The position numbers and the translations under genes are program-made. From the NCBI RefSeq assembly GCF_001292625.1, contig NZ_LAJH01000009.1, positions 868,001-932,000 on the forward strand: a stretch of 64,000 nucleotides of DNA, written 5' to 3'. This DNA is from Shimia sp. SK013 (GTDB taxonomy: Bacteria > Pseudomonadota > Alphaproteobacteria > Rhodobacterales > Rhodobacteraceae). The notes below the pieces were generated by a model. The model was given only the letters and a program-made list of their open reading frames with translations. It ran no database searches and was not told the DNA's origin. Numbering within the stretch: position 1 is the stretch's first letter; each line of letters begins with the position of its first letter. Below, one piece after another: positions 1,380 to 26,699 of the stretch.

Positions 1380-1727
1380 TCAGCCCTTTTGAATGGCCTG
1401 AATGCGGTCCCAGCTTTCAAGGCATTGCGCCTCGGCTGTTTCGCCAAGATCGACCTTTTTCAGGTCGCGCTTTTTCTGGCTGTAAACAAAATCCACCACC
1501 TGTGGCATGGCCTCGGCCAAACCTTCCGGCCAATCCGGATTGGCTCCCATAACGGTCTCGACCGCTTCGTCTTGCTTGACCTTGTCCAGCCGTGCCTGCT
1601 GCACCGCACCCATGACCTCACCTTGTAGCTTGCACGAGTCCTCTTTCTCACCGGCCATCACTGGCCCCGCCAAAGAAACGCCCAGCGCCAAAGCCGCCGC
1701 ACCGCGTAGAAAAACAGAAACAGTCAT
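1380..1727 (-). CDS. Small secreted protein of unknown function
   Basis: This encodes a 115-residue protein beginning with a clear signal peptide (MTVSVFLRGAAALALGVSLA, cleavage likely after AGPVMA), so the mature form should be periplasmic. The mature part is charged and holds two cysteines, near its start (DSCKL) and near its end (EAQCL), that could form a disulfide. I chose the ATG at 1727 because the signal peptide starts there and an AGGTGAAGGA ribosome binding site precedes it; a longer in-frame extension lacks protein character. I do not recognise the family. It follows soxG by 34 bases on the same strand and may be cotranscribed with the sox genes. Confidence 0.75.
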   Translation of the reverse strand: MTVSVFLRGAAALALGVSLAGPVMAGEKEDSCKLQGEVMGAVQQARLDKVKQDEAVETVMGANPDWPEGLAEAMPQVVDFVYSQKKRDLKKVDLGETAEAQCLESWDRIQAIQKG

Positions 1728-1761
1728 GGGTCGTCCTTCACCTATTACACGCGCAAAAATG

Positions 1762-2313
1762 TCAGCCCGCGCCCCGCGCTGCAACCCCTTTCATCGCAGT
1801 CTCGAGTTCGTGAACCAATGTCACCGCCATCGACCGGAACGCCATGATCTGAAACGTGTTGTCGCCAACGCGCGTGATCGACACCATCAGATGCTGCATC
1901 ATCGTGCGCGCGGTATGGCCGCGCCTGAACGTACTTGCCCGCAAATCCACTGGCACCAATCGCGCGAGCACATCCTCGGCGCCGACGCCTTCCAGTCGAA
2001 CCACTGCCCAAGCATCGCTCTGGTCTGTGATCGCCGCAAATGTGCCCAGCGCCATATCGCTGTCCGGACCAATTAACATCGCTTGCCCTTGGCCAAACCA
2101 GACCGCCCGCGCGCCCTCTTTGCCGGTCGCGCGGTTGGCAGCCGGAAACGTCACGCCATGCGCCGCCTTTAACGCATCAGACAAGGCTTTCTCCTGTCCT
2201 TTAAAGGGCGCCAGCGACGTCATCGCGCCCGCATCCACTTCGCTTAGCGTTACACCGCCGGCCTTCACCGGCAACAGTCCCGCACAGGGCGTCTTTGCAC
2301 TCAACTCAGCCAC
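1762..2313 (-). CDS. soxG: Sarcosine oxidase gamma subunit
   Basis: This is the fourth subunit of heterotetrameric sarcosine oxidase, which oxidatively demethylates sarcosine to glycine and passes the one-carbon unit to tetrahydrofolate. The 183-residue protein has the family's features, including a C-terminal segment like HTARTMMQHLMVSI. The start is set at a GTG because an excellent AAGGAGG ribosome binding site lies seven bases upstream, although an in-frame ATG exists 48 bases earlier. It overlaps the end of soxA by eight bases, which suggests coupled translation in a soxB-soxD-soxA-soxG operon. Confidence 0.9.
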   Translation of the reverse strand: MAELSAKTPCAGLLPVKAGGVTLSEVDAGAMTSLAPFKGQEKALSDALKAAHGVTFPAANRATGKEGARAVWFGQGQAMLIGPDSDMALGTFAAITDQSDAWAVVRLEGVGAEDVLARLVPVDLRASTFRRGHTARTMMQHLMVSITRVGDNTFQIMAFRSMAVTLVHELETAMKGVAARGAG

Positions 2314-5236: not shown

Positions 5237-5505
5237 GCGCTTGCCTCTTTCACTTTGGAGGCCAATTCGCATCCCAAAACCTCGTGCGTCACTGTGTTAC
5301 GTGTGACAACAATCCACGCGCCACAGCCGCCTTCGTGATACCAAAGGTCCCGCGTAACACCCGCTGGGTTGTCGCGGTTGTGCACATAGTCGTCCCAGAC
5401 AACATCGCTTGCTTCCGGATCAGGGCGCTGCAATGCCACCGCATCCCCGACATAGTAAAATTCGCGCCGGTCGCGCTCTCCGCAATTTGGACAGGTCAAT
5501 CTCAT
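5233..5505 (-). CDS. soxD: Sarcosine oxidase delta subunit
   Basis: This is the small zinc-binding subunit (90 aa) of sarcosine oxidase. The N-terminal MRLTCPNCGERDRREF contributes a Cys-X2-Cys pair, and the later GGCGAW segment a further cysteine, consistent with the zinc site known in this subunit. It lies 11 bases downstream of soxB and shares an ATGA overlap with soxA, the standard order for this operon. Confidence 0.95.
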   Translation of the reverse strand: MRLTCPNCGERDRREFYYVGDAVALQRPDPEASDVVWDDYVHNRDNPAGVTRDLWYHEGGCGAWIVVTRNTVTHEVLGCELASKVKEASA

Positions 5506-5516
5506 TGCGCGTCCCC

Positions 5517-6773
5517 CTAGTGCAAGTTGTGTTGAGAGCCGGTGCCCTCTTCGTCCATGATGCCAACGCCGGTGCGAAAGCGATCAAGACGGAATTTCTC
5601 GGCCACATCGTGGTGCTGATCGGTCGCCATCAAATGCGCCATGCACCAACCAGACGCAGGCACAGCTTTAAAGCCCCCGTAATTCCAGCCACAGTCGATA
5701 AACAGCCCCTCGACGCCGTCCATCTTGTCGATGATCGGGCTGCCGTCCGGCGTCATATCCATGATCCCGCCCCAACTGCGCAGCACTTTGGCTTTGCCAA
5801 TCATCGGCATCAGCGTCATGCCCGCTTCCATGACGTGCTCCTTCATCGGCAGGTTGCCGCGTTGCGCATAAGAGGAATAGAAATCCAGATCCCCGCCGAA
5901 TACCAAACCGCCTTTGTCGGATTGGCTGATATAAAAATGCCCCATGCCAAAGCTGATCACGTGATCAATCACCGGCTTCAACCCTTCGGTCACAAAGGCC
6001 TGCAACACATGGCTCTCGATCGGCAATCGCTGCCCCGCCATGCCTGCCACAAGACCCGACCGCCCCGCTGTGATGATGGCCACTTTCTTGGCCCGAATTG
6101 GCCCGCGTGAGGTCTGCACGCCTTTGACAACGCCACTCTCAATATCAATGCCAGTAACTTCGCAGTTTTGCACCAGATCGACCCCGCGATCGGACGCGCC
6201 GCGCGCATAGCCCCACGCCACTGCATCGTGGCGCGCGGTGCCGCCACGCGGATGGTAAAGCCCGCCATAAATCGGAAACCGCGTCTGGTCGAAATCAAGA
6301 TACGGCAAATGTTTGCGCACACCCTCTCGGTCCAGCAACACCGCATCATCGCCCTGGTTGATCATCATATTACCGCGTCGCGCAAACGCATCGCGTTGCC
6401 CGTCGCTGTGAAACAGATTGATCAACCCGCGCTGTGAATGCATCACGTTATAATTCAGGTCTTCCTCCAGACCTTCCCACAGCTTCAGCGAATGGGAATA
6501 GAATTCGGAATTGCCCTGCAGGAAATAGTTCGCGCGCACAATCGTGGTGTTTCGCCCGACATTGCCGCCACCAAGATAGCCTTTTTCCAGCACCGCGATA
6601 TTGGTCATGCCGTGGTTTTTGGCAAGGTAGTAGGCCGTCGACAACCCATGCCCGCCGCCGCCAATGATCACCATATCGTATTCGGGCTTGGGTTGGGCAT
6701 CGCGCCAATGCGCAGTCCATCCCTTGTTGCCGCTCAACCCCTCCGCCAGAACCTTCAGGCCGGAAAACCGCAT
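5517..6773 (-). CDS. soxB: Sarcosine oxidase beta subunit
   Basis: This is the catalytic flavoprotein subunit (418 aa), where sarcosine is oxidised. A Rossmann FAD motif, DMVIIGGGGHGLSTAYYLA, sits near residues 33-51. The segment RHDAVAW at about 181-187 aligns, from memory of the family, with the lysine-histidine site that carries the covalent FMN in characterised enzymes, with Arg here in place of Lys. It is the first gene of the soxBDAG operon. No folate-pathway genes follow in the window, so the one-carbon unit is presumably handled by genes elsewhere. Confidence 0.95.
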   Translation of the reverse strand: MRFSGLKVLAEGLSGNKGWTAHWRDAQPKPEYDMVIIGGGGHGLSTAYYLAKNHGMTNIAVLEKGYLGGGNVGRNTTIVRANYFLQGNSEFYSHSLKLWEGLEEDLNYNVMHSQRGLINLFHSDGQRDAFARRGNMMINQGDDAVLLDREGVRKHLPYLDFDQTRFPIYGGLYHPRGGTARHDAVAWGYARGASDRGVDLVQNCEVTGIDIESGVVKGVQTSRGPIRAKKVAIITAGRSGLVAGMAGQRLPIESHVLQAFVTEGLKPVIDHVISFGMGHFYISQSDKGGLVFGGDLDFYSSYAQRGNLPMKEHVMEAGMTLMPMIGKAKVLRSWGGIMDMTPDGSPIIDKMDGVEGLFIDCGWNYGGFKAVPASGWCMAHLMATDQHHDVAEKFRLDRFRTGVGIMDEEGTGSQHNLH

Positions 6774-6939
6774 CTGCTATCCTTTGCACCTCGCAGGGCC
6801 CAAGACCCGCTTTTCAAAAGCTAGGACCATACCCCCACGCACTTATGCGGTTTTTCGACAAAGAATGGCCCCTTCGCGACAGACTGCGTCGCAAAGAACA
6901 GATTTGCAATCGCTTGCAGCGGGACAACGAGAAAAGCAC

Positions 6940-7473
6940 CTAAAACGAGAATGTCAGCCCTAGCCCGGCCAAAGGCGCGACCTGATGAACGGCCCCTCCG
7001 GCATTTTTGGACCCGCCAGTATTGAGCGACACGCCTGTATCGACCTCTGCACCGGCAAAGACCGAAATACGGGTCCCCGGTCGCGGATCATAACTCAGAC
7101 CAAGCACCACCGGAATATTGCCATCCCAACTGTATGTGCCAAGAGCATCCCCACTGCCGGTGTAATACGCAGATAAGGTCAGCCCCAAGTCACGGCCCGC
7201 ATCATAACGCACAGTCAGGCGCGAATTCTGATCGCTTGAAACCGGCGCCTCAACGCTCAAATGCATGCGGTCCGAAATCTGCCACCGCGACATACTTTCA
7301 CTGGCCGGTAACGGCAAAAGAGCAAGTGGACGGCTTTTCGGTGACTCAGATGCGCTTTGCACCGGTCCTGCGGCCATGCGCGCAGCCGGCGCGAATGATT
7401 GCGCCGACGTCTGCGAGGTCAACGCGGCAAGTGTGACAATTGCGGCAAGCAATATCAGGGACATTCTGTCCAC
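6940..7473 (-). CDS. Small outer-membrane beta-barrel-like protein
   Basis: This encodes about 177 residues, beginning with a signal peptide (MSLILLAAIVTLAALTSQTSAQ) and ending in an aromatic GLGLTFSF terminus. The mature part alternates short hydrophobic strands (LTVRYDAGRDLGLTLSAYY, VVLGLSYDPRPGTRISVFAG), which together with a terminal Phe is typical of small outer-membrane barrels. A GTG at 7473 is preferred because AAGGAG lies seven bases before it; the ATG at 7464 (MSLILLA) is the alternative. The function is unknown. A degraded stretch of similar character lies just upstream. Confidence 0.6.
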   Translation of the reverse strand: MDRMSLILLAAIVTLAALTSQTSAQSFAPAARMAAGPVQSASESPKSRPLALLPLPASESMSRWQISDRMHLSVEAPVSSDQNSRLTVRYDAGRDLGLTLSAYYTGSGDALGTYSWDGNIPVVLGLSYDPRPGTRISVFAGAEVDTGVSLNTGGSKNAGGAVHQVAPLAGLGLTFSF

Positions 7474-7589
7474 AGAGAATCTCCTTTTGAGCCGGTTCCC
7501 CAACCCATAGCAAGCGCAGCTTAACAAAGGATCAAAACGCCAACGGCGCCCTTCCAAGGACCGCCTTCTCGTGCATGAAAGGAGTTCTA

Positions 7590-7810
7590 AAACGACCGCG
7601 AAAACGCCAGCCCGGCCAGCGAAAACCGGGTTTCTTCCCTCCGCGTCGCCAACCCCGCCCCCAATCGTCGGCCCCAATTGCCGGGCCGGTCCTCCACCGC
7701 CACGGCTCGGCGATTTGCCAATCCAGTAACAATGCAGGGAACATAGCCAAAGTGTCGGCTTCCAAGCCGGCGAAAGCGTTTCTTTGGCGTTCTGCCACTT
7801 TTACGCAGCT
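7590..7810 (-). pseudogene. Degraded relative of the neighbouring beta-barrel gene
   Basis: No intact gene fits this stretch, but on the minus strand pieces of a barrel-like protein appear in different frames. One frame reads FPALLLDWQIAEPWRWRTGP, resembling the SRWQISDRMHLS segment of the intact neighbour. A second frame reads GAGLATRREETRFSLAGLAF and ends with RSF and a stop, in the manner of a barrel C-terminus. I infer a frameshifted, internally deleted copy. The match to the neighbour is by eye and short. Confidence 0.35.
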
Positions 7811-7847
7811 GCCTTGAGGCAAGATCAAACCAGCGCCCGTTTTCAGG

Positions 7848-8441
7848 TTACGAAGTCGCCGCTTTGCGTTCCTCTTTGCTCAAAACGCGTGGCGTCACCA
7901 CCGGTGCGCCTTCGGCGTCAAAAAACGGTCCCTTTTTGGCATCGCCCCGCAACACCGCCGCAAAGTGGCGCGCCAGAACGTTGAACCCCGCCTTGTTGAA
8001 TCCATAATTCTTGATCGGCGGACCGGGCTCGGCACTTTCAGCGGAATTCACCGCAACCACCTTGCCCACGGCCTTCTGAACCGCATCCCCCTGCATCGTG
8101 TTCACAAACAGCCCCACAAACGAAAGCTTTGTGCTGCCAAGGGTGTTAAAAACCGGCGTGTCACAACAGGACGCATACCACCGGATCAGCCCACGAGGCG
8201 ACAAACGCATTGCCGCCAGATGATCCGCCCCTTTGGTAATTTCGACGCCTGACGGGGTGGTCTGAAAAATATCCGTGCCACCGCGTGGCAACAATGTGTC
8301 GCCAACACCCAACGCATGCGCGCCCGCCTGACAATCCTTGCAGTAACACTGCACATGCGAGCCCGTTTTCGGGCTCGCATCTTTCAGAACTGCGCTGAAC
8401 TCACCGCAACGGCAAGCAATCGCAATATCTGTCTTGGCCAT
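7848..8441 (-). CDS. GFA-like zinc protein (DUF6151 type)
   Basis: This 197-residue protein has cysteine pairs CRCGEF near residue 10 and CYCKDCQAG near residue 34, and a later CCDTPVFN, the pattern of the Gfa / CENP-V zinc-binding fold. Length and sequence resemble the DUF6151 branch. The biochemical function is unknown; members of this fold are often annotated as formaldehyde-activating enzymes without proof. It ends four bases downstream of the adjacent glutamate dehydrogenase on the same strand, so the two may be cotranscribed. Confidence 0.7.
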   Translation of the reverse strand: MAKTDIAIACRCGEFSAVLKDASPKTGSHVQCYCKDCQAGAHALGVGDTLLPRGGTDIFQTTPSGVEITKGADHLAAMRLSPRGLIRWYASCCDTPVFNTLGSTKLSFVGLFVNTMQGDAVQKAVGKVVAVNSAESAEPGPPIKNYGFNKAGFNVLARHFAAVLRGDAKKGPFFDAEGAPVVTPRVLSKEERKAATS

Positions 8442-8444
8442 ATC

Positions 8445-9875
8445 TCAAAGCCCTTTCGCCCTGTAGCTCGCAGCAACCTTTTCAATCGACACCAGATAGG
8501 CCGCCGTGCGCAGATCTTCGACATCGGCCCGATCATGCCAGACGTCCCGCATCGATTGATAGGCAATACGCATCGTGTCGTCGAGACCCGAGCGTACAAG
8601 CTCCAACTCATCCGCGCCGCGCAGGTATTTCTGCTTGAAACGGTCAGTCAGACTGTACTGCGGCCCCATAGCTTCGCTGATCTTTTCAAGCTCATCCACG
8701 ACCAACTGGTGACGCGCCTCTTCCTGACGGCGCTGCATCCGGCCAAACCGGATGTGGCTCAGGTTTTTGACCCACTCAAAGTAGGAAACCGTCACCCCGC
8801 CTGCGTTGGCATACATGTCGGGGATGATCACTGTGCCTTTCTTGCGCAGGATCTCATCGGCCCCAGCTGTCACTGGCCCATTGGCCGCCTCAATGATCAA
8901 AGGCGCTTTTATGCGGGCCGCGTTAGACATGTTGATAACGCCCTCAAGCGCGGCCGGAATCAGAATATCGCAGTCTTCCTCCAGACCCGCAGCGCCTTCG
9001 GCATGATGCGTCGCATCCGGATAATCCGCGATGCCACCATGTTTTGCCAACCATTGCTGTACCGCGTCCACATCCAAGCCCGACGGGTTCATCAAGGCCC
9101 CGTCCCGCTCGATGATGCCAACGATAATCGCGCCATCTTCATCGCTCAGGAACTTGGCGGCGTGATATCCCACGTTGCCAAGCCCCTGCACGATGACGCG
9201 CTTGCCATCAAGCCCGCCACTCAGACCGGCTATCTCGTAATCCCGTGGATCACGGAAAAACTCACGCAGCGCATATTGCACCCCGCGCCCTGTGGCTTCG
9301 ACCCGACCCGAAATGCCGCCAGCGTTCAGCGGCTTACCTGTCACACAGGCCCGCGCGTTGATATCCGTGGTGTTCATCCGTGCGTATTGGTCTGCAATCC
9401 ACGCCATCTCGCGCTCGCCCGTGCCCATATCGGGCGCCGGTACGTTTTGCGACGGATGGATAAGATCGCGTTTCGCCAACTCATAGGCAAACCGGCGGGT
9501 CACGCGTTCCAGTTCGTGTTCGTCATATTCACGCGGATCAATGCACAATCCCCCCTTAGAGCCACCAAACGGCGCTTCCACGAGGGCGCATTTATACGTC
9601 ATTAGCGCCGCCAACGCCTCGACTTCGTCCTGATTGACCGAGGTCGCAAACCGAATGCCGCCTTTTACAGGTTCCATATGTTCGGAATGCACAGACCGAT
9701 ATCCGGTGAAGGTTTTGATCTCTCCTCGCAGGCGCACGCCAAAACGCACCGTATAGGTCGCATTGCATACCCGTATCTTCTCCTCAAGTCCGGGCGGCAA
9801 GTCCATCAGCGCCACAGCGCGATTGAACATCAGATCGACACTTTCACGAAAACTCGGCTCTTTGATTGCGCTCAT
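8445..9875 (-). CDS. gdhA: Glu/Leu/Phe/Val dehydrogenase, probably glutamate dehydrogenase
   Basis: This catalyses reversible oxidative deamination of glutamate to 2-oxoglutarate and ammonia in the cytoplasm. The 476-residue protein shows PVKGGIR (Lys71), PFGGSKGG with the catalytic Lys107, APDMGTG with Asp149, and the nucleotide-binding GLGNVG at 231-236. A GGGGAG ribosome binding site precedes the ATG. The length suits the short, hexameric class. Coenzyme preference (NAD or NADP) cannot be settled by eye. Confidence 0.9.
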   Translation of the reverse strand: MSAIKEPSFRESVDLMFNRAVALMDLPPGLEEKIRVCNATYTVRFGVRLRGEIKTFTGYRSVHSEHMEPVKGGIRFATSVNQDEVEALAALMTYKCALVEAPFGGSKGGLCIDPREYDEHELERVTRRFAYELAKRDLIHPSQNVPAPDMGTGEREMAWIADQYARMNTTDINARACVTGKPLNAGGISGRVEATGRGVQYALREFFRDPRDYEIAGLSGGLDGKRVIVQGLGNVGYHAAKFLSDEDGAIIVGIIERDGALMNPSGLDVDAVQQWLAKHGGIADYPDATHHAEGAAGLEEDCDILIPAALEGVINMSNAARIKAPLIIEAANGPVTAGADEILRKKGTVIIPDMYANAGGVTVSYFEWVKNLSHIRFGRMQRRQEEARHQLVVDELEKISEAMGPQYSLTDRFKQKYLRGADELELVRSGLDDTMRIAYQSMRDVWHDRADVEDLRTAAYLVSIEKVAASYRAKGL

Positions 9876-10213
9876 AATTCACTCCCCGCACATTCACAGA
9901 CTGCGACTCACTGCCGCAGTCTGACCTAAAGTCACACTAGGACCATTTTGTACCCAGATACGAGAGCGATCTTAATATTCTGATTCCAAGATGAGAAAAC
10001 CGTCGAAGCATGAACTTTGGAAACAGAAAGGTCCATCAGGGCCGTATTGTCCACAACTGATTGACAATAAAGGGAAAAATCTAAAATTCAGTCATACTTA
10101 ACGCTTTATTGCGCCCCAATTCCGCCGTATTCAACCCCGATAACGGTGGGGACGCATTCTGCCCTTTCATGTGGGCAAAAGTATTAACAAGCGTCGAGGC
10201 GAGGTACGTTAAG
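9876..10213. other. Divergent intergenic region between gdhA and the tad genes
   Basis: This 338-base gap holds the promoters of two divergent units. TTGACA at 10061-10066 with TAAAAT at 10082-10087 is a possible plus-strand promoter, but its 15-base spacer is short. The stretch around 9960-10000 is AT-rich. No small gene or clear hairpin was seen. Confidence 0.4.
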
Positions 10214-11995
10214 ATGAAACAGTTCGAGGCCCCCCGGCCGACGAACGCATCCCCCTCCGTTCTGGTACGAGCCCAGAACATGTCCCGGGCATTTGCCCGC
10301 GACGAAGAAGGTGTGATCGTTGGTTTCGGTATATTTTTATTCCTGCTGATTTTGATGGTTGGCGGCATCGGCGTTGATGTTATGCACTCAGAAATGAAGC
10401 GTACGCGCCTTCAGCACACGCTGGACCGCGCCGTGCTGGCTGCGGCTGACCTGGAACAGACCCGCGACGCAACCGAAGTTGTCGCGGACTATTTCGACAA
10501 ATCCGGCATGTCGGACTACGCGCCTGACGTTACGCCCTCGTCTGACAATCTGACCTACCGCACCGTGGCCGCCACAGCGGCTCAGCCGCATCAAACCCGC
10601 TTCATGAAGTTGGTGGGGGTTGATCAACTGGATGTAAACGCTGCCAGCACCGCCGAAGAGCGGATCGGCAACGTAGAGATCTCCATGGTGCTCGACGTCT
10701 CCGGTTCGATGGGCAACAACAGCAAGATTTCTAACCTGCGCACTGCGGCGAAGGAATTCGTGCAGACAATGGACGACAATACCGAAGACGACACACTGAC
10801 CATCTCGATCGTGCCCTATGCCTCGCAGGTCTCGGTCCCGGACGGCGTGTTTGAACATATGACCGTGCACGGTGAAAACACTGTGTCCAACTGCCTGAAC
10901 TTCGAAGACGACGATTTCGACGAGTCAGGCATGCTGGCCACCACGGCCTATGACCGCACGATGCACTTCACCTATTCCGACAACACCTATGAATACCGTG
11001 ACAACAATACCGTGCTGACCTCCAGCATCGATTGTAAAAACATGTCATCGCGCGATATTGCGATCCTGCAGAATGACACCACAGTTTTGAAAAACTACAT
11101 CGATGGCCTGACTGCCGCCGGTAACACCTCTGTCGAGATTGGCATGAAATGGGGTGCCGCGCTTGTTGATCCGGACTTCCGCACAGTGACCGAAAGCCTT
11201 GTGGATCAAAGCGAGGAAACCGACGACGGCATGGTCAAAAAAGCATTCGGCGACCGCCCCTATAACTATGGCACCAACCAGTCGCTCAAGGTTGTGATTG
11301 TAATGTCGGATGGGGTCAACACCAGACACCACCGTATCACCGACGGCAACCGTGAAGGCGACTCGCCGGTCTGGTACAACGCACAGGAAGAGTTCTACTC
11401 GATCTATCTGGGCCAAGACACCGCAGACGACGATAACGACAACATCACCGAAGAGCCGATCTATTACTGGCCAAGTGAAACCAAGTTTGTCGATCACGCC
11501 TATGGTGAAGGCACGTACGAGCACACCGAAACCACGTATGACTACGAATGTAGTTCCTACCGAAGAAACGGGTCTTGTAAGCGCTACAAAAAGGTCGCCA
11601 CCGGCACGACTACAACTGTTATCGACGAGCCAGGCTCTGCCGAGGTCGTGACGTATCCCGATCTTTGGGCCTACTCGTCTCCTAAATTTGTGGCCGACGA
11701 CATTTTTGCGCCGCTACTGGGTCAAACCGCCGCCCGCGAAGCATGGTGGTATAGCGTGGTCGAGGAATACAGCAGCACCGCAAAAGATGCCCACACAAAG
11801 CAGATTTGCGACGCTGCTAAGGAACGCGGCATTGTGGTGTTCTCAATCGGCTTTGAAGCGCCAGATCACGCACGCGATGTTTTGAAAGATTGCGCCAGCT
11901 CTGATGCGCATTACTTCGACGCCTCCGGTGTGGAGATCAAAGACTCCTTTGCGGCCATCGCCACATCCATCCGCCAACTGAGGTTGACACAATGA
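10214..11995 (+). CDS. TadG-like pilus assembly protein with von Willebrand A domain
   Basis: This 593-residue protein has one membrane helix near the N-terminus (GVIVGFGIFLFLLILMVGGIGVDV, residues about 35-58), preceded by the Tad-type RDEEG motif, so the bulk should be outside the cytoplasm. A vWA domain follows, with an intact metal-ion-dependent adhesion motif (VLDVSGSMGNNS, near residue 160) and a later VVIVMSDGVNTR strand. A Tyr/Thr-rich insertion containing two cysteines sits near residues 435-460. The ATG at 10214 follows a GAGG site. It overlaps the next gene by four bases. Such proteins act in Flp/Tad adhesion pili; the Tad motor genes are not in this window. Confidence 0.85.
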   Translation: MKQFEAPRPTNASPSVLVRAQNMSRAFARDEEGVIVGFGIFLFLLILMVGGIGVDVMHSEMKRTRLQHTLDRAVLAAADLEQTRDATEVVADYFDKSGMSDYAPDVTPSSDNLTYRTVAATAAQPHQTRFMKLVGVDQLDVNAASTAEERIGNVEISMVLDVSGSMGNNSKISNLRTAAKEFVQTMDDNTEDDTLTISIVPYASQVSVPDGVFEHMTVHGENTVSNCLNFEDDDFDESGMLATTAYDRTMHFTYSDNTYEYRDNNTVLTSSIDCKNMSSRDIAILQNDTTVLKNYIDGLTAAGNTSVEIGMKWGAALVDPDFRTVTESLVDQSEETDDGMVKKAFGDRPYNYGTNQSLKVVIVMSDGVNTRHHRITDGNREGDSPVWYNAQEEFYSIYLGQDTADDDNDNITEEPIYYWPSETKFVDHAYGEGTYEHTETTYDYECSSYRRNGSCKRYKKVATGTTTTVIDEPGSAEVVTYPDLWAYSSPKFVADDIFAPLLGQTAAREAWWYSVVEEYSSTAKDAHTKQICDAAKERGIVVFSIGFEAPDHARDVLKDCASSDAHYFDASGVEIKDSFAAIATSIRQLRLTQ

Positions 11996-19638: not shown

Positions 19639-19674
19639 GCGCCTACTTCAAAACAACAATCACGCGGATTCGGC

Positions 19675-20661
19675 TCACGCCGGGTCCGTTTTTTTACTGA
19701 TCACATGCAGCCCGGCGATGTGCCTCTGATAGAGCCGTTCAAGCGTCCAGAGCGCGGGATCGCGGCACACGTCATCATAGTTTTCGCAATTCTCAACATC
19801 CGGCCCGCCCTTGCGAAACTGGGAAACGACCCCATCCGGCAGGCGCTGCCCAGCCTCCAGAAACCGCGACATTGCCTCCTCATAGGGCCCAATCCGAACC
19901 GAGCGCCCAAAAAGGTCTTCCGCGATCACCGCTTCAAGCCGCTTCTGGCCAAAAATGTTGCGTACGGTCCGTGAAATCTCCCACCGCCTTCGCAAAATCG
20001 AATAGGCCTTACGCCGCACCGCCTGAATGTCTTTTTTCCCGAACTGCACACGCACCTGCGCCTGATCGGCTACATAGGCCTGAAACGCCTCATCACTCAT
20101 CTTTTCACGGCTGACCTGAAACTGCATATGCGTGTTGCCATAGTGTTGTTGCGACAACACCATTTTTGTCGCATGGGCGATCACAGAGCGGCGCAAAATT
20201 GTGACTGGCTTGACTTTGTGCGCCCTAAGGACCCGCGCCAGATGTGCGCGGCCGCCAAATCCACGCGGCGGGCCGCGCCATTTGAAAAACACATGCGCAG
20301 CTTGCTCCTCAGACAAAAGCCTGCCCCGCGCACCATCGGTATCACGCGCAACGTCCGCAAGATAAGGATGATCCCGCCGCGCGAAGACACAGTCAAATAC
20401 CTCGGCCAGTGTCTCACAATAAACCGCATCGCTGGGGGCAAAGTTGACAAACCTATGCCGCTCAAAATCCTCCAGTACCGGCACACAGACCGACGGCAGA
20501 TGGGTTGCATAGTCAACCACCGGCGTTGAACAAACGTTGCCGCTATAAAGCAAAATGGCGTTTGTCATGCGGATTTTTTCCAATGCAGCAGTCAGTTCAG
20601 CAAACGCGACGCTAGTGTGAATGTGTTCAAAGTCAAGGGCCTGGCCGACCGACATGTCCAT
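19675..20661 (-). CDS. Sulfotransferase-like protein, uncertain
   Basis: This encodes about 328 residues. A segment near the N-terminus (NAILLYSGNVCSTPVVDY) sits where sulfotransferases carry their phosphosulfate-binding loop, and VKPVTILRRSVIAHATKMVLS resembles the second binding motif. I therefore suspect a Stf0-like sulfotransferase, but the usual Arg-Ser-Gly-Ser signature is absent. The start is uncertain: ATG at 20661 or 20655, or TTG at 20667, none with a good ribosome binding site. The gene is convergent with metG. Confidence 0.45.
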   Translation of the reverse strand: MDMSVGQALDFEHIHTSVAFAELTAALEKIRMTNAILLYSGNVCSTPVVDYATHLPSVCVPVLEDFERHRFVNFAPSDAVYCETLAEVFDCVFARRDHPYLADVARDTDGARGRLLSEEQAAHVFFKWRGPPRGFGGRAHLARVLRAHKVKPVTILRRSVIAHATKMVLSQQHYGNTHMQFQVSREKMSDEAFQAYVADQAQVRVQFGKKDIQAVRRKAYSILRRRWEISRTVRNIFGQKRLEAVIAEDLFGRSVRIGPYEEAMSRFLEAGQRLPDGVVSQFRKGGPDVENCENYDDVCRDPALWTLERLYQRHIAGLHVISKKTDPA

Positions 20662-20780
20662 CGTCAAGAGTGATCGGAAACCCCAAATTGATCTACCTCA
20701 GTGACAGCACGGCAAGGGCTGACTAAAGTCATCCAAAGCCCCTTGGGCTGGAAATTCGTGAACCAGAAGGATCGCACGCA

Positions 20781-20933
20781 ATGGAAACTATTCTTAACTT
20801 CTTTTGGGCGCTCATCGACGCTTTACCGCCGCTGTTGACCGCGTCGATCTTGATGATCGGTATCAGCGCTTTTGCCGCATTTATCCTGCTAATTGTGGTC
20901 GGCTTGATCACCATGCGCAAAGAAAGTCACTAA
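20781..20933 (+). CDS. 50-residue single-pass membrane protein
   Basis: This short gene has a good AGAAGGA ribosome binding site nine bases before its ATG. The product starts METILNFFWALIDALPP and continues into one long hydrophobic helix (residues about 17-44) ending in MRKESH, a positively charged cytoplasmic end. The function is unknown. An eight-base-pair GC hairpin without a T run follows at 20962-20981. Confidence 0.55.
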   Translation: METILNFFWALIDALPPLLTASILMIGISAFAAFILLIVVGLITMRKESH

Positions 20934-21010
20934 TTCTTGGTGGCATCCGCGGTCAGAGCATGAGGCCGCAATGGCGGCCTCTGGTTAGACTGGTCTGCGC
21001 TTAGTGATCT

Positions 21011-21054
21011 TAAAAAGCTAAGGCGCCAACGCCGAGGTGTTGCGCTTGTTGGCG
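21011..21054 (-). terminator. Probable terminator of the radical SAM operon
   Basis: Read on the minus strand, CGCCAAC (21054-21048) can pair with GTTGGCG (21030-21024) across a 17-base loop. A T-rich tail, TAGCTTTTTA, follows at 21020-21011. It begins 15 bases after the last gene of the operon. The long loop makes it weaker than a textbook terminator. Confidence 0.5.
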
Positions 21055-21068
21055 ACGGGTGATCTCCT

Positions 21069-23045
21069 CTACCCACCCCACCAGTCACGATCGTACATTC
21101 CAAGAGGATTTGAATACATCGAAAACCCGCTTTGATTTTCTGCAGCCGTTTTTGCGAAAGACGTTATGTGTTCCTTGGCGGCAGCATACCAACGGTCTTC
21201 CCAAGCGGGGATTGTCTCTCCGGTCTTGTATTCCGGCATGCTCTTGAACTTCACCTGGAGGCGGTCACCGACCCACTCTGGTTGGTACCAAAAAGATGGT
21301 GTCGACTGAGCGCGTGACAAGCGCGGCGTTAGTCGAGACATTTTGCAGTCGTATCCTGCAAATGTCATCTTCCGAAAGGCTCCGGAGTTGGTCGCATCGT
21401 TCGAAATGGCCAAAACGCCGTTGTGTTTGAGATGCCGGATCATTTGAGTGACACCTCCATGCTGGCCGCTGTCACTGAGCAGAATTTGCTTTGCTTTGGT
21501 CGACGCTGCATTCCCACCGGCGCCCAGAAAGGCAAATCGGGACCCAAATTGTTCCTCAAGAGCAAAAAAAGCCGCTGCAACAGGCCCCATGTGGGTCCCA
21601 AAGAGGATCACCCCGCGTCCCAGAGACAGAGCTTCTTGGAGTGGAGAGTAATCGATCGGATCGACGAGATCCAAAAGCTCCTGACCGCGATCCAAGCCCG
21701 CAAAATGGCCCCAGCGTGCCAGTAAGCTAACGGCTTGTTTTCCCCAGAGAGCCCGTGAACTCCAGTCCGACCACTCGTGTTCCGGGCGCTCCGAAAGCTT
21801 CCAAGGAATGACCAAAGGCTTGGGTGCTTTCTGCAGGTCAGGCCCATTGATCCGAGCGATTGACGCAAGCCCGCTAGCCAAATCCGATGGCAGCGATGCC
21901 ACATGCGTTCGCCGGACCTCGTCTTTCACTGCATCAACTTGTTCGCGACTACCGTCTGTGCGCAGCACCATCAAAAGCCCTCGGGCAACGGCCAAATTTC
22001 CAGTGCGTGCCCAGATGTCATCCAACAAACCAGTCGCTTCTCCAAAGCGTTTGTTGATCGCCAAACATCTGGCAAGAACCAACCCGGCTTTCGCTTCAAT
22101 GTCTGGTTCCAACTCGTCAATGGCAAGAATTTTTCGAGCATTGGAGGCGGCTGACTCTGTGGCCCCGACACGCAGTTGAATCGTCGCAAGCGCCACCAAA
22201 TCAGAGACACTCATGTCTGAAGTCGGAATGCTCTCCAGCAAGTCTCGCGCCTGATCTTTGCGGGACATAAATGAGAGAACTTTCGCGAGTATTAGGCGCG
22301 CCCGAAGGCCACCTTCGTGATCATTCACATAGCGTTCAAATTCTGAGACGAGCCCAATCAAGGCAGCTGGATGATCGTGTCGGCAAACAATCGCGCTAAG
22401 AACGTTCAAGGCGCGCAACATCAAGGTCGAATTTGTTTCGGGCAATGCGACAACCACATGCATTGCTTCTATGGGGCCTTCAAAATTTCCATTGTCGAGG
22501 AAGCGTTGCGCCAAAGTCAGCCAAAGCTTGGCCAGCTTTGCCGGGTTGCCCGCACCGCCTGCCAAGAGCAAAGCGGCTTTGGCGTCCTCAATGTGGTCGG
22601 TATCGATCAGCAGTTTAGCACGACGCAGATACAACGCCGATGGATCTGGCAGATGCGCTTGCTCGATTTCGGCATTGGTTGGCAATACAGAATGAGCCTC
22701 CTCGGCACGGCAGTCTTGAAACATCAGTTCAGCGCGCGTGAGCCGAACGTGAACGGGGGCATCCGGAACATCAAGCAACGAAATTGCCGCGTCACGCTTG
22801 CCCGCAGCTTCGAGCGCCTTGGACAAAAGCAGGCAACGACTCCAACGCTTATCGACTTTGCCGAAAGACAAAAAGCCACTGGCAAGAGCGACGGCTTCCG
22901 TCGCCCGATCCTCGCGGATGAGCTGTAGAACCTCGGTTTTTGTGGCCTTGAAGTCGCTCTGTCGTTGAGAGGCTGGCTTGCCAGATCGCCTGGGCGTCAC
23001 TTCTTTGGTGCTTCTAGCGGCGTTTTCTGAATTATCCGAGATCAT
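21069..23045 (-). CDS. TPR protein with C-terminal LpxL-like acyltransferase domain
   Basis: This 658-residue protein has a charged, low-complexity N-terminus of about 35 residues. A long helical-repeat region (about 40-400) with TPR character follows, for example YLRRAKLLIDTDHIEDAKAA. The C-terminal 230 residues resemble LpxL/HtrB-type acyltransferases: RGVILFGTHMGPVAAAFFAL is where the family has its His-X4-acid catalytic motif, but here the acid is Ala. No signal peptide is seen. It is the last gene of a four-gene operon, 23 bases after the methyltransferase. The real reaction is unknown, and the domain may be a non-catalytic relative. Confidence 0.6.
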   Translation of the reverse strand: MISDNSENAARSTKEVTPRRSGKPASQRQSDFKATKTEVLQLIREDRATEAVALASGFLSFGKVDKRWSRCLLLSKALEAAGKRDAAISLLDVPDAPVHVRLTRAELMFQDCRAEEAHSVLPTNAEIEQAHLPDPSALYLRRAKLLIDTDHIEDAKAALLLAGGAGNPAKLAKLWLTLAQRFLDNGNFEGPIEAMHVVVALPETNSTLMLRALNVLSAIVCRHDHPAALIGLVSEFERYVNDHEGGLRARLILAKVLSFMSRKDQARDLLESIPTSDMSVSDLVALATIQLRVGATESAASNARKILAIDELEPDIEAKAGLVLARCLAINKRFGEATGLLDDIWARTGNLAVARGLLMVLRTDGSREQVDAVKDEVRRTHVASLPSDLASGLASIARINGPDLQKAPKPLVIPWKLSERPEHEWSDWSSRALWGKQAVSLLARWGHFAGLDRGQELLDLVDPIDYSPLQEALSLGRGVILFGTHMGPVAAAFFALEEQFGSRFAFLGAGGNAASTKAKQILLSDSGQHGGVTQMIRHLKHNGVLAISNDATNSGAFRKMTFAGYDCKMSRLTPRLSRAQSTPSFWYQPEWVGDRLQVKFKSMPEYKTGETIPAWEDRWYAAAKEHITSFAKTAAENQSGFSMYSNPLGMYDRDWWGG

Positions 23046-23068
23046 GACAAACCCTCTTCTTCGTCTTA

Positions 23069-23809
23069 TCAGGGTTTAACCAGGCTAAGCAGCAAATAAT
23101 GCTCAAGGAGCTTGATCCAGGTCCGTCCAGCCCGCTCAAAGCCCGACTCACAGAGCAGATCAAGATAGGGAGCGCCCGTATCCTCCGTGATGTCGAGGTT
23201 GGTTTCAATTTCCCAACCGATGTCCCGAATTTGGTCTATGAATTCTTCAAGAGACAGACCGGTGTTTTCTTTTGGAATTCCATAAATGCTGCGGGTGTAA
23301 AGCACGTCGCTAAAGATCAGGCGGCCCCCACTTTTCACAATCCTGAAAGCCTCACGCAGAAAATCCATCCGGGTGTTGAAGTGAAACGCAGCTTCAACGC
23401 AAAAAATCCGCTCCACACTGTCAGAGGGCAAATCCAGCCGTGATGCATCTTTCTGGATAAAGTTGAGGTCGGGATATTGTTCAGATGCGAATGCCACTTG
23501 CTCTGCGGAAAAATTCACGCCGGTTACGCGCGCGTTGGGGTAGGCATCTGCGAACATTTTGCTCGTAACGCCCAAACCGCAGCCTATATCGAGGATCCCG
23601 CCGCTCACATCTTGACGTGCGACGTCGAGGTCAATGTGCGCCGTGACCAAGGCCTCACAGGCCGCATTCAGGTTAGGAATTGAAACGGGTTGAACGTCTT
23701 TCCAATACCCTACGTTAAAGAAGTTGCTGCCCTCGTAGAGCTTGCGCATGGCTTCGTCAAAAATGATGTGATTGTAGTGCTTTGAGTATTTTTCAGAGCT
23801 TTGGCGCAT
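23069..23809 (-). CDS. Class I SAM-dependent methyltransferase
   Basis: This 246-residue cytoplasmic enzyme has motif I GGILDIGCGLGVTSKMF (near residue 70), then VTGVNFS and LDLPSDSVERIFCVEAAFHF, the layout of small-molecule methyltransferases close to the tocopherol and glycine/sarcosine methyltransferase groups. The opening KYSKHYNHIIFDEAMRKLYE segment also matches that style. The substrate is unknown. A GAGG site precedes the ATG. It starts seven bases after the P450 gene on the same strand. Confidence 0.8.
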   Translation of the reverse strand: MRQSSEKYSKHYNHIIFDEAMRKLYEGSNFFNVGYWKDVQPVSIPNLNAACEALVTAHIDLDVARQDVSGGILDIGCGLGVTSKMFADAYPNARVTGVNFSAEQVAFASEQYPDLNFIQKDASRLDLPSDSVERIFCVEAAFHFNTRMDFLREAFRIVKSGGRLIFSDVLYTRSIYGIPKENTGLSLEEFIDQIRDIGWEIETNLDITEDTGAPYLDLLCESGFERAGRTWIKLLEHYLLLSLVKP

Positions 23810-23816
23810 GTGTACC

Positions 23817-25118
23817 TCAGGTTGTTTCTGCCCGCTTGCGGGCGCGCGCGGTCAATGGAACACCATCCCACGCATGAAGAGTAAAAGAGTAAATAGGTTT
23901 AGGGGCATCTTTGCCGGGCGAGAACTCGAAGCGGGTCAGCATCTCCGACAATATGACAACGGATTCCAGTTCTGCGAACTTTGTTCCCAGGCAAACATGA
24001 GCGCCAGCGCTGAAGGGGCGGTATGCGCCAGTGATTATCTCTTCAGACTGCGGGACCAGAAAGCGTGAAGGGCGAAAGATGTCCGGATCCGACCAAAGCT
24101 TCTGGTGCCTGTGCATGGCGTAAAAGTTCACAATAACTGGCGTGCCGCGCGCAACGTCTAGCGCGCCCAATGTCGTGTGTTGGCGGGCTTGGCGCACTGT
24201 CATGACTGCAGGTGGCAGGAGGCGCATGGCCTCGCGCAGGGCAGCCATGGTGTAATCAAGACGCACAAAAGACTTTGGATCGCTCAGGTCCGTGGTTGCG
24301 ATTTCGGACCGTGCTTTTCCGGTGGCTTCCGGCTCCCTCGACAAAAGCCACAATGTCCATGCGACAGCCGACGCACTTGTCTTGTGGCCTGCGCTTAGCA
24401 TCAGACGGATGTTGTCCAGCAGCACATCAGGACTGAGCGTCTCATTGCCTCGTGCAATGAATTCCGAGCGCATGTGCGGGCAATTCTTTGTCAATTCAAG
24501 CGACCGCACAGCCGTGTCTGAAATCAGAGCTGTCACCCGTAGATGGTCGGCGGCCATACGCGCTTGAAAAATCTCGGCAATGTTAGACCGCACGAAATCC
24601 GGCAGCGGAGCTTCGGTTGACTCAGGATCAAACATGACCCGCCAAATGATCTCGAATGTGATCGCTGAAAGCAGTGCGGATATGTTCGTTTCCCCGGCAC
24701 CACCTTCGGCAAGTTCACGTGACAATCGCCTCGTAACGTCTTGGATCATCGGCACATGCTTAAAAGATTGCCGTTGCGCCAGAAGGGCGCCAAATGTCGT
24801 CTTGGCCGCCCAAGCCTGCTTGCCTTCAAGAGCAATCATGCTTTGCGGACCTGATTCACCACCTGCGATCTTGCGATAGAGACCGTGTTTAGCAAACATC
24901 CCGCTGTCATCCGCCAAGATACCCGTTGCCAAATCAGGTTGCATCACGTGCACGACTTTTTTCCCGCGCGCATGAACTTGGACGATGTCGTCTGAAAGGA
25001 TACGCGCGGGCCAATACTGATCTGGTTGCAAAATAGCCTTTAGTGCGGGCGGCGCAGTCGGGATTTCATGTGATGCAAGAAGGAGGCCCGGAACCGGCTT
25101 CATGGACAGGTTGGTCAT
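23817..25118 (-). CDS. Cytochrome P450 with unusual I-helix
   Basis: This 433-residue haem monooxygenase-type protein shows the haem-binding FSAGAHVCLG with Cys376, the K-helix ExxR (ALREAMRL) and an I-helix SAGHKTSASAV. In most P450s the I-helix reads AG-x-(D/E)-T; here the acid is Lys, which suggests altered oxygen activation or a different reaction. There is no N-terminal membrane anchor, so the protein is soluble and needs ferredoxin-type partners, none of which is in the window. The ATG at 25118 overlaps the radical SAM stop as ATGA. Confidence 0.85.
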   Translation of the reverse strand: MTNLSMKPVPGLLLASHEIPTAPPALKAILQPDQYWPARILSDDIVQVHARGKKVVHVMQPDLATGILADDSGMFAKHGLYRKIAGGESGPQSMIALEGKQAWAAKTTFGALLAQRQSFKHVPMIQDVTRRLSRELAEGGAGETNISALLSAITFEIIWRVMFDPESTEAPLPDFVRSNIAEIFQARMAADHLRVTALISDTAVRSLELTKNCPHMRSEFIARGNETLSPDVLLDNIRLMLSAGHKTSASAVAWTLWLLSREPEATGKARSEIATTDLSDPKSFVRLDYTMAALREAMRLLPPAVMTVRQARQHTTLGALDVARGTPVIVNFYAMHRHQKLWSDPDIFRPSRFLVPQSEEIITGAYRPFSAGAHVCLGTKFAELESVVILSEMLTRFEFSPGKDAPKPIYSFTLHAWDGVPLTARARKRAETT

Positions 25119-26257
25119 TCTGCATCTGACCCGAGTGTCTGGTAAATATCGGGCAGCGGATAAATGAAAACCCTGCCCAACATTTCCATCATGTCCAACC
25201 ATTGTTCGAACATCTCTGCGGATTGCAGAAACTGTGCGCTAGGGATGAATTGAGAAGACCACGCACCGCTGTAAAGGCGGCACTCTTTGCAATCCACGTT
25301 GGGCGTACAACACTTCACGTTTTCCGCCTGCAAATTGGTGGAGAAATATTTCAGCGCGCCTTGGATGCGCGAGCCGCAATCGCGCGCAATGTTTGTCTCC
25401 GGATCAATGTCAAACATTGGGCCGAGTTGGGTGATCAAATCACGAAATGCGGGCGTACAAAGTGTCATGTCGGGGAAATCTTCCATCGCCGAGGTCATGA
25501 CGTCCGAAGCGCGGGCAAGCTCATCCGTTGTGAAAGACGGCGCACCTTTTTCCGGCGCAATGCGAAAGAACTTCTCGTCGCTCGATAGACCCTGTGCGAT
25601 TTTTTCCAAATATGTTTGCGTCGGAGAAAACAGATTGAACGTCACGGCTAGGCCGTGATCTTGGCTCGCTTTCATGACGTCCGGAACGGTGTGAAGGTTC
25701 CAAGGAGAGAGCGTAAACAGCATGACCGCACGGTCGTCGCCGGCATAGTTGCGCATTGCTTTGCCCAGCACTGAACCACCACGCAAGTCGGTATCGGTTT
25801 CGTCGTCCCCCCAAACCGATATTCCGATCCGAAAGGCGATGTCCGGATCAATTCGGATCGTCCCGTTGGTGCCAATTTTCCCGTGTTTAAGATGCTTGGT
25901 CGCGGCCAATAGGCGCTGTTGTTCAAGCGCGGGCTCGGCGCCAACGAAGTAGGCCATGCTCACGCCACGGGCTTTTTCGGCCTCAAAAAAATCTTGCCAG
26001 TCAGGCTGTGGTCGCTCAACCGCGACCTTCAAGCGATCCTCATTTTCAAAGTAATAACAGCCTTCGCACCAAAGATTGCACCGCTGGCTCATTTCATAAA
26101 ATGCGGGCCGGCGGAAAATACGAATGACATGTTTCGCCAACTCATAGCGCGGCCGAAAGCTCGGCACCTCGGACAACAACGCATTACAACGTCGCAACAT
26201 TTCACGGGGAATAGAAGTCGAGGGGATATTTTCAGTCTGGTCGTACAAACGCCTCAC
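25115..26257 (-). CDS. Radical SAM enzyme with cysteine-rich C-terminus
   Basis: This 380-residue protein carries the radical SAM motif CNLWCEGC (Cys60, 64, 67). A second group of cysteines near the C-terminus (DCGSR, KCCTPN, DCKECR) looks like a SPASM or twitch-type auxiliary iron-sulfur site. Such enzymes often modify peptides or natural products. The start is a GTG, with AAGAAGGA only three bases upstream; an ATG at 26200 is an alternative. It heads a tight operon with P450, methyltransferase and TPR/LpxL-like genes. The pathway is not recognised. Confidence 0.8.
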   Translation of the reverse strand: MRRLYDQTENIPSTSIPREMLRRCNALLSEVPSFRPRYELAKHVIRIFRRPAFYEMSQRCNLWCEGCYYFENEDRLKVAVERPQPDWQDFFEAEKARGVSMAYFVGAEPALEQQRLLAATKHLKHGKIGTNGTIRIDPDIAFRIGISVWGDDETDTDLRGGSVLGKAMRNYAGDDRAVMLFTLSPWNLHTVPDVMKASQDHGLAVTFNLFSPTQTYLEKIAQGLSSDEKFFRIAPEKGAPSFTTDELARASDVMTSAMEDFPDMTLCTPAFRDLITQLGPMFDIDPETNIARDCGSRIQGALKYFSTNLQAENVKCCTPNVDCKECRLYSGAWSSQFIPSAQFLQSAEMFEQWLDMMEMLGRVFIYPLPDIYQTLGSDAE

Positions 26258-26396
26258 AAGTCCTTCTTGAAAGCTGTGGAATTGGGCGCTGAAACACCAA
26301 ATGCTCGGTCGTTGCGGTTTCCAACATTTCTTCTGAAACTTCGTAGTTGGTTTCTGATGCCAAACAAGCCCTTATGTTGCGCAATTCACTTATCAA
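26232..26396 (-). CDS. Possible small peptide gene ahead of the radical SAM gene (speculative)
   Basis: This is a short open frame of up to 54 codons on the same strand as the radical SAM gene, overlapping its GTG start by 26 bases. It has only TTG starts (26396, 26384, 26363) before an internal ATG at 26327. The TTG at 26363 has an AAGG six bases before it and gives an acidic leader-like beginning, ASETNYEVSEEMLETATTEH, with a tail containing one Cys. The layout would suit a peptide substrate for the radical SAM enzyme. Against it, third-position GC is low (about 44%) and there is no strong start signal. Confidence 0.2.
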   Translation of the reverse strand: MISELRNIRACLASETNYEVSEEMLETATTEHLVFQRPIPQLSRRTCEAFVRPD

Positions 26397-26612
26397 GCAA
26401 GAAATCTCTTCTCGCGGCCGGTTGCGCCGTTTTTTTGGGCCGTCTGTTCGACCTATCTTGCAGACTTTTCTTTCCCGCTAGCTGACGGGCTCGGTTCCAA
26501 AATGCAAAAAAATCACGGCAATCAGGCGCACACTTTGCGGCCCACCCAAAACGGAAATGCATTCAAAGAGGCGCCAGAAGCCTGAGCAATTACGATGCGT
26601 ACCTTGAATTCT
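26397..26612. other. Intergenic region between tRNA-Leu and the radical SAM operon
   Basis: This is the remainder of a 355-base stretch without an established gene. It must hold the operon promoter and any tRNA 3' processing or termination signal. A weak AGGC/GCCT hairpin followed by TCTTT lies near 26565-26585. No direct repeat of the tRNA end, integrase or clear promoter was found by eye. Confidence 0.4.
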
Positions 26613-26699
26613 TGGTACCCGCGGCCGGATTCGAACCGGCACGGCCTGTTCGGCCTAGAGATTTTAAGTCTCCTGTGTCTACCATTCCACCACGCGGGC
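26613..26699 (-). tRNA. tRNA-Leu (anticodon TAA)
   Basis: The 87-base gene, read on the minus strand, starts GCCCGCGTGGTGGAATGG and ends in an encoded CCA. The acceptor stem GCCCGCG pairs with CGCGGGT (one G-U), the T arm GTTCGAATC is present, and the anticodon loop CTTAAAA gives anticodon TAA. The long variable arm (GGCCGAACAGGCC) is typical of class II tRNA-Leu. Confidence 0.95.

Follow-up and report, generated by a model that had tools for sequence, protein, structure and literature searches.

Several described enzymes resemble parts of the locus studied here. VexE, which serves the lipid anchor of the Vi capsule, is a protein in which tetratricopeptide repeats are joined to a lysophospholipid acyltransferase domain (TPR-LPLAT), and it moves a beta-hydroxyacyl chain from the acyl carrier protein (ACP) to C-6 of UDP-N-acetylglucosamine, uses the catalytic pair H466/D532, and has no acidic residue where the H(X)4D/E motif normally places one (PMC9597891). 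The same paper presents the late acyltransferases of lipid A, LpxL and LpxM, as LPLAT kin of VexE (PMC9597891). Among radical S-adenosylmethionine (rSAM) enzymes, SkfB belongs to the SPASM/twitch group, and ApyO is the cytochrome P450 of the gene clusters for aminopyruvatide, a ribosomally synthesized and post-translationally modified peptide (RiPP). In the alphaproteobacterium Shimia sp. SK013, likenesses to these enzymes come together in one operon of four genes, located in a stretch of 64,000 nucleotides (assembly GCF_001292625.1, contig NZ_LAJH01000009.1, positions 868,001 to 932,000 of the forward strand) that we call the window. In this work we analyzed this operon, its relatives and its insertion site, and we conclude that it is a coherent, mobile tailoring cassette, a conclusion that is well supported; to the further reading that its product is a small lipid or glycolipid modified by acylation, oxidation and methylation we give close to an even chance. 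The genes of the operon are the following.

25115-26257, minus strand: radical SAM (rSAM) protein of 380 aa, GTG start, with CxxxCxxC and GAEP motifs
23817-25118, minus strand: cytochrome P450 of 433 aa (PF00067, 7e-52)
23069-23809, minus strand: class I SAM-dependent methyltransferase (MT) of 246 aa (PF08241, 5e-20)
21069-23045, minus strand: TPR-LPLAT protein of 658 aa, with N-terminal TPR and a C-terminal VexE-like acyltransferase region

All four reading frames are intact, co-directional and close-packed, and their core motifs are present; the source genome carries a single copy of the rSAM gene and a single copy of the TPR-LPLAT gene. An earlier reading of this DNA, made from the sequence alone, had described four packed minus-strand genes, and the coordinates bear this out: the rSAM and P450 genes overlap by 4 bases (ATGA), the P450 and MT genes are 7 bases apart, and the MT and TPR-LPLAT genes 23. 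The enzyme assignments of that reading also hold, through the Pfam matches and motifs listed above together with TPR_19 (3e-06) and the VexE model NF011721 (1.2e-17) for the large protein, whose supposed LpxL-like nature can be sharpened to that of a VexE-like TPR-LPLAT. The terminator-like hairpin that it placed at the end of the operon is not supported: a 7-bp stem (CGCCAAC/GTTGGCG) with a long loop and T5 closely after it is visible directly past the last gene, the hairpin is missing from the terminator scan, and the stretch folds like shuffled sequence (z 0.22).

In the TPR-LPLAT protein the N-terminal half contains TPR_19 (PF14559, 3e-06) and residues 287-637 match the VexE model (63.4 bits); from its sequence, therefore, it has the N-terminal repeats and the C-terminal LPLAT region with a His and an Asp that define a TPR-LPLAT, and it shares the two-part build described for VexE. 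The putative catalytic residues, H485 and D550, are 65 residues apart, compared with 66 in VexE (PMC9597891), and neither protein has the acidic residue of H(X)4D/E. Both residues are invariant in 8/8 aligned TPR-LPLATs, a set that includes a Caballeronia and a Mesorhizobium protein and has VexE itself outside it. If the likeness to VexE holds, LpxL and LpxM belong to the same LPLAT group as the window protein; they differ from it in that the window protein reads HMGPVA, that is HX4A, at the H(X)4D/E motif, and in that it is a large TPR fusion. The VexE model also matches the other TPR-LPLATs of related cassettes that were scanned (4e-18 in locus L007, 1e-19 in L009, 5e-25 in L060 and 4e-10 in L076, against 1e-17 in the window), and in these four proteins the match is confined to the C-terminal half; the protein of L008, left out of the scan, is 98% identical to that of L007 in its LPLAT region. 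Higher scores are reached by the Caballeronia protein (L071), which lies in a capsule ABC-export locus and scores 674.5 bits, still below the model's cut-off of 1200, and by the Mesorhizobium protein (L072), which adjoins glycosyltransferases and scores 352.8 bits. The partners of VexE are capsule export genes, whereas those of the window protein are the rSAM, P450 and MT genes, and no locus for polysaccharide synthesis and ABC export like that of VexE was recognised by eye among the window open reading frames (ORFs) between 17000 and 30500, six of which were checked against Pfam.

The rSAM protein belongs to the radical SAM superfamily by its CxxxCxxC motif (C60, C64 and C67), and it has five further cysteines near the C-terminus (C294, C316, C317, C323 and C326) that would likely hold an auxiliary Fe-S cluster. 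The eight cysteines are invariant in a six-row alignment (A1); in a second one of seven rows (A4), C60, C64 and C67 are again invariant and the only change among the eight is a Gly in place of C317 in locus L062. The protein gave no match in Pfam at E 0.1, PF04055 included, and this family matches only one of the seven aligned relatives (E 0.008). Its NCBIfam matches are weak (best ScmE, 0.0016, and viperin, 0.003) and all far under the cut-offs, so that, judged by these models, it appears to reach no curated family. The closest solved chain is SkfB (E 6e-08 with the profile from A1, 4e-04 with that from A4), and SkfB and other SPASM/twitch enzymes have in common with the window protein the CxxxCxxC motif and possibly the C-terminal cysteine cluster; they differ from it in that here no curated model reaches its cut-off, the partners are a P450 and acyltransferases, and no precursor peptide was found. 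The P450 is a regular member of its family, with 177 bits to PF00067 against a cut-off of 22.8 and intact heme (FSAGAHVCLG, with its Cys), ExxR (EAMR) and I-helix (AGHKTS) motifs. Its top NCBIfam match is ApyO (9e-28), at 97 bits against a cut-off of 525 and through residues 223-400 alone, and no RiPP context was found around it.

The cassette recurs in other species. A scan with short peptide patterns over one genome per species (84,980 species), which detects close relatives only, returned 38 stretches, three of which encode a relative: those of Nioella nitratireducens, N. ostreopsis and the gammaproteobacterium Marinobacterium sedimentorum. Both Nioella loci keep the gene order of the window, with identities of 68% for the rSAM, 79% for the MT, 52% for the P450 and 30% for the TPR-LPLAT protein, and they come after a sulfotransferase gene (PF13469, 5e-10 in L007) and a gene without Pfam match. 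In Marinobacterium (L009) the order is TPR-LPLAT, rSAM, MT, P450; only the rSAM identity remains high (63%), against 36% for the MT, 28% for the P450 and 24% for the LPLAT region, and nearby are a KpsC-like gene (PF05159, 8e-96), a glycosyltransferase gene (PF13692, 6e-06) and a sulfotransferase-like gene (PF00685, 9e-04, below cut-off). With partial sets found beyond these species, the expectation of the sequence-only reading that the genes would occur together elsewhere was confirmed, and because the set recurs in other species it is more than a product of chance.

The distribution is rare and patchy. Relatives of the rSAM protein were found in 4/25 genomes of the genus (E 1e-10), 5/295 sampled genomes of the family (E 0.001), 62/385 of the class (E 0.001; mostly weak and generic-rSAM-looking) and 4/398 of the phylum (E 1e-20), the source genome being included in each count. 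Neighbourhoods for the class-wide matches were taken from G333, G454 (two places), G658, G210 and the source genome, and for the plasmid search, which gave 15 matching records, from four of them (H1-H4); one weak match (L013, in G250) was compared by BLAST alone. The plasmid search with the P450 gave 128 records, and the one neighbourhood viewed among the 12 listed had no annotated rSAM gene; that with the MT gave a single record, where the relative precedes nonribosomal peptide synthetase (NRPS) and polyketide synthase (PKS) genes. Besides the source genome, only one congener (G1030) combines an rSAM gene (47% identity) with a P450 gene and a TPR-LPLAT gene, the latter convergent to that pair. 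In G742 a first locus has an MT of another type, the rSAM, two P450s and a TPR-LPLAT, and a second one an MT, the rSAM, a P450, a carbamoyltransferase and, near the contig end, a 90-residue LPLAT-like match (E 9e-05). A P450, a membrane-bound O-acyltransferase (MBOAT), an SGNH-like gene and the rSAM form the locus of G943, and in G333 the rSAM and P450 genes stand opposite a carbamoyltransferase, an MBOAT and an SGNH-like gene.

When the nine loci with an rSAM protein at least 46% identical by tblastn are taken together, the P450 is near the rSAM gene in all of them (adjacent in seven, one gene off in L009, two genes off in L062), an acyltransferase is present in 8/9 (six TPR-LPLATs and two MBOATs) and an MT, of two types, in 6/9. 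Four of the lower-scoring of these rSAM proteins are 44-47% identical in alignment A4, L076 standing outside it. The independent loci number eight, since those of Nioella are near-copies of each other. All nine proteins fall on one side of a tree branch (support 84/89; 83% of bootstrap trees), and the 4-base overlap of the rSAM and P450 genes is found again in L007, L008 and L076.

The operon lies in an insert between metG and a tRNA gene.

19639-26612, no strand: insert carrying the operon, 6,974 bp, from metG (to 19638) to tRNA-Leu (from 26613)
26613-26699, minus strand: tRNA-Leu (taa), the insert edge
26254-26367, minus strand: candidate precursor ORF of 37 aa, whose stop overlaps the rSAM start (GTGA)

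The G+C content of the insert is 53.7%, against 57.4% for the whole window, and the operon region is the lowest in the window (53.5-53.8%; mean of operon-length stretches 57.3, sd 1.6). In three of seven congener loci, those of G210, G1024 and G1036 (L063, L067 and L068), metG is about 0.05-0.3 kb from tRNA-Leu; in G1035 (L064) the distance is 2.6 kb and, by eye, an RTX-like repeat protein of about 680 aa is encoded between them (1613-3658); in the other three metG falls outside the stretch taken. The metG/tRNA-Leu junction is thus a variable insertion site. A search of the window for a duplicate of the tRNA 3' end found none. The insert also encodes, at 19675-20667, a 330-aa protein with a TTG start that looks sulfotransferase-like by eye and matches neither a Pfam nor an NCBIfam family at E 0.1.

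The sequence-only reading had taken the operon for a tailoring set of a pathway that it did not recognise, acting on a modified peptide, lipid or small molecule, and in our analysis, too, the four genes could be assigned to no known pathway. Among these products a lipid or glycolipid fits best and a peptide worst. In the scheme that we favour, the TPR-LPLAT protein would accept an acyl chain, with acyl-ACP as the probable donor, and use His485/Asp550 to transfer it to a hydroxyl group on a small acceptor; by analogy with VexE, this acceptor is most likely a sugar or sugar nucleotide. The rSAM protein would cleave SAM and introduce a radical change on a core common to the members of the family, the P450 would hydroxylate and the MT would methylate. 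That the rSAM and MT are more conserved toward Nioella than the P450 and the TPR-LPLAT protein hints at a constant core with a variable acyl or oxidation part. Neighbours of carbohydrate type, which we count for the glycolipid, are the KpsC-like and glycosyltransferase genes of L009, the sulfotransferase of L007 and the carbamoyltransferases seen in L061 and L037.

A number of observations weigh against this proposal. Beside the window operon we recognised no gene for a glycosyltransferase, a carrier protein, a ligase or an exporter, and for this reason the substrate and the product are guesses. The 63.4 bits of the large protein lie far below the VexE cut-off, and it is best described as a VexE-like TPR-LPLAT, not as a VexE equivalog; its LPLAT region is 19-41% identical to those of other TPR-LPLATs, and the assignment of H485 and D550 draws on their spacing and on the Caballeronia protein. 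Matches below the cut-off to the VexE model occur in 9/14 well-known control genomes, where they probably come via the TPR half. The AlphaFold model of the protein has a mean pLDDT of 66.8, with a good TPR superhelix (mostly 70-90) and a middling C-terminal half, and among the best 50 of 1825 Foldseek matches no acyltransferase of the LPLAT kind is named; since these matches track the TPR part, the LPLAT half is backed by sequence and not by structure. The model of the rSAM protein (pLDDT 45, with four similar rows in the alignment) is too poor for use, and remote relatives of this protein lie near NRPS/ACP or PaaA-like diiron genes. A profile of the LPLAT region matched in 38/394 genomes of the family (E 1e-6), mostly in frames of about 290-400 aa that are probably LpxL-type enzymes. 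Eight longer frames were taken (L120-L127), and the context could be read in all but L125 and L127. In L120 and L121 no adjacent rSAM, P450 or glycan gene was recognised; L122 is a locus with an RgpF gene and sulfotransferase-like genes (by BLAST to L009; the two scanned had no Pfam match). In L123 the TPR-LPLAT gene adjoins an AMP-binding ligase gene, in L124 (G187, 2960-11015) it occurs with an AMP-binding ligase, a P450 with an unassigned C-terminal half and a NodU-type carbamoyltransferase, and in L126 (G153, 6901-9900) a 999-aa frame fuses the ligase to a VexE-like LPLAT domain; these three, which are free of rSAM genes, point to other acceptors. Such contexts agree with the acylation of small molecules or glycans, and they also show that a TPR-LPLAT protein does not by itself fix the acceptor.

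Other explanations have to be weighed against the small lipid or glycolipid. The cassette could make or alter the lipid terminus of the bacterium's own capsule, in which case the radical, oxidative and methyl modifications would sit on the lipid that anchors a polysaccharide exported by the cell. The likeness to VexE and the KpsC-like gene that adjoins the Marinobacterium set speak for it, as does the presence of PF05159 in seven of the eight genomes with rSAM/P450 loci against 2/14 control genomes, which is a weak pointer; G742 gave no PF05159 match. The source genome has a KpsS/KpsC-like pair of its own (C9:855795-860375), which lies some 29 kb away from the operon; the genes of this pair, however, sit by eye between nusB-, ribD- and nrdR-looking genes, and since these look like housekeeping genes the distance may mean nothing. 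Moreover, KpsC/KpsS capsules end in 3-deoxy-D-manno-octulosonic acid linked to lyso-phosphatidylglycerol and are not of the VexE type, and no export genes were recognised beside the window operon, so that we regard a capsule terminus as rather unlikely. A free natural product in which an amino acid or another small acid is N- or O-acylated, the TPR-LPLAT protein acting as a stand-alone condensing acyltransferase, is suggested by the ligases in L123, L124 (where the P450 and carbamoyltransferase add to it) and L126, by a Methylomagnum plasmid locus (L014, 7377-16169) where a remote rSAM relative (32% identical) accompanies an ACP, a TauD-like oxygenase and an NRPS, and by the position of the sole plasmid MT relative before NRPS/PKS genes. 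Against it, inspection by eye of the ORFs listed for the window, Nioella and Marinobacterium loci revealed no ligase, NRPS or carrier protein, and a simple search for carrier-protein motifs gave a single, implausible frame; we hold this product to be unlikely.

It is very unlikely that the rSAM, P450 and MT mature a ribosomal precursor peptide. The nearest characterised rSAM enzymes include SkfB and further SPASM-type peptide maturases, the best P450 match is the RiPP enzyme ApyO, and the 37-aa frame at 26254-26367 overlaps the rSAM start; yet this frame had no tblastn match outside the window DNA, at E 1e-3 in L002-L009 and at E 1e-4 in 19 other stretches. Comparing 24 short frames of the insert, all outside its genes, with 45 from five related loci yielded nothing convincing (best pair E 0.006, 38% over 26 residues), so that no convincing conserved precursor gene emerged among the short frames of 20-110 aa at the six loci, although a very short or distant precursor could have escaped; in Marinobacterium the TPR-LPLAT and rSAM genes are only 12 bases apart. 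That four unrelated genes were gathered by chance at a tRNA hotspot is extremely improbable. The insert does occupy a variable tRNA-Leu site, and of the 4/25 congeners with an rSAM relative only the source genome and G1030 have the full trio with the P450 and TPR-LPLAT; nevertheless, Nioella keeps the order, a gammaproteobacterium holds the same set, and the rSAM/P450 overlap is found in the window, L007, L008 and L076.

In this operon a VexE-type enzyme is tied to a P450 and to an rSAM protein outside the curated families, and a search of open-access PMC literature at the level of keywords and abstract openings found no paper naming this combination. If the product is a new glycolipid, the chemistry of capsule anchors would be linked to radical tailoring. 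It is possible, and we say so tentatively, that the cassettes represent a broader class of mobile marine (glyco)lipid pathways with an unseen lipid structure, in which the rSAM/P450 pair rebuilds a small core and interchangeable genes decorate it (VexE-like TPR-LPLAT or MBOAT/SGNH, carbamoyl-, sulfo- and methyltransferases), the products being surface-bound or secreted. The pair together with exchangeable acyl, carbamoyl, methyl and sulfo genes offers a simple handle for genome mining, and such a class would probably escape tools that rely on NRPS, PKS or RiPP signatures.

More distant rSAM relatives have other partners. In L010, L011, L012 and L077 the rSAM protein (35-39% identical) has as its partner a TPR protein that resembles an alpha/beta hydrolase in its C-terminal half (Hydrolase_4, 3e-05 in L077, below cut-off; by eye in the other three), and no relative of the window P450 was found in these stretches, of which that of L012 is a 4-kb contig and that of L010 reaches the contig end. 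At 23-26% identity, the rSAM gene adjoins one for a PaaA-like diiron protein in 6/6 loci viewed (L015, L016, L038, L039, L040 and L073). Given that P450, PaaA-like diiron and TauD-like neighbours recur, an O2-using oxygenase beside the rSAM protein is a repeated theme, absent in the TPR-hydrolase group. Some of the PaaA-like loci also carry MaoC, thioesterase or thiolase-like genes. The rSAM frame of L011 (G190) is interrupted, and this locus was left out of the tree for that reason.

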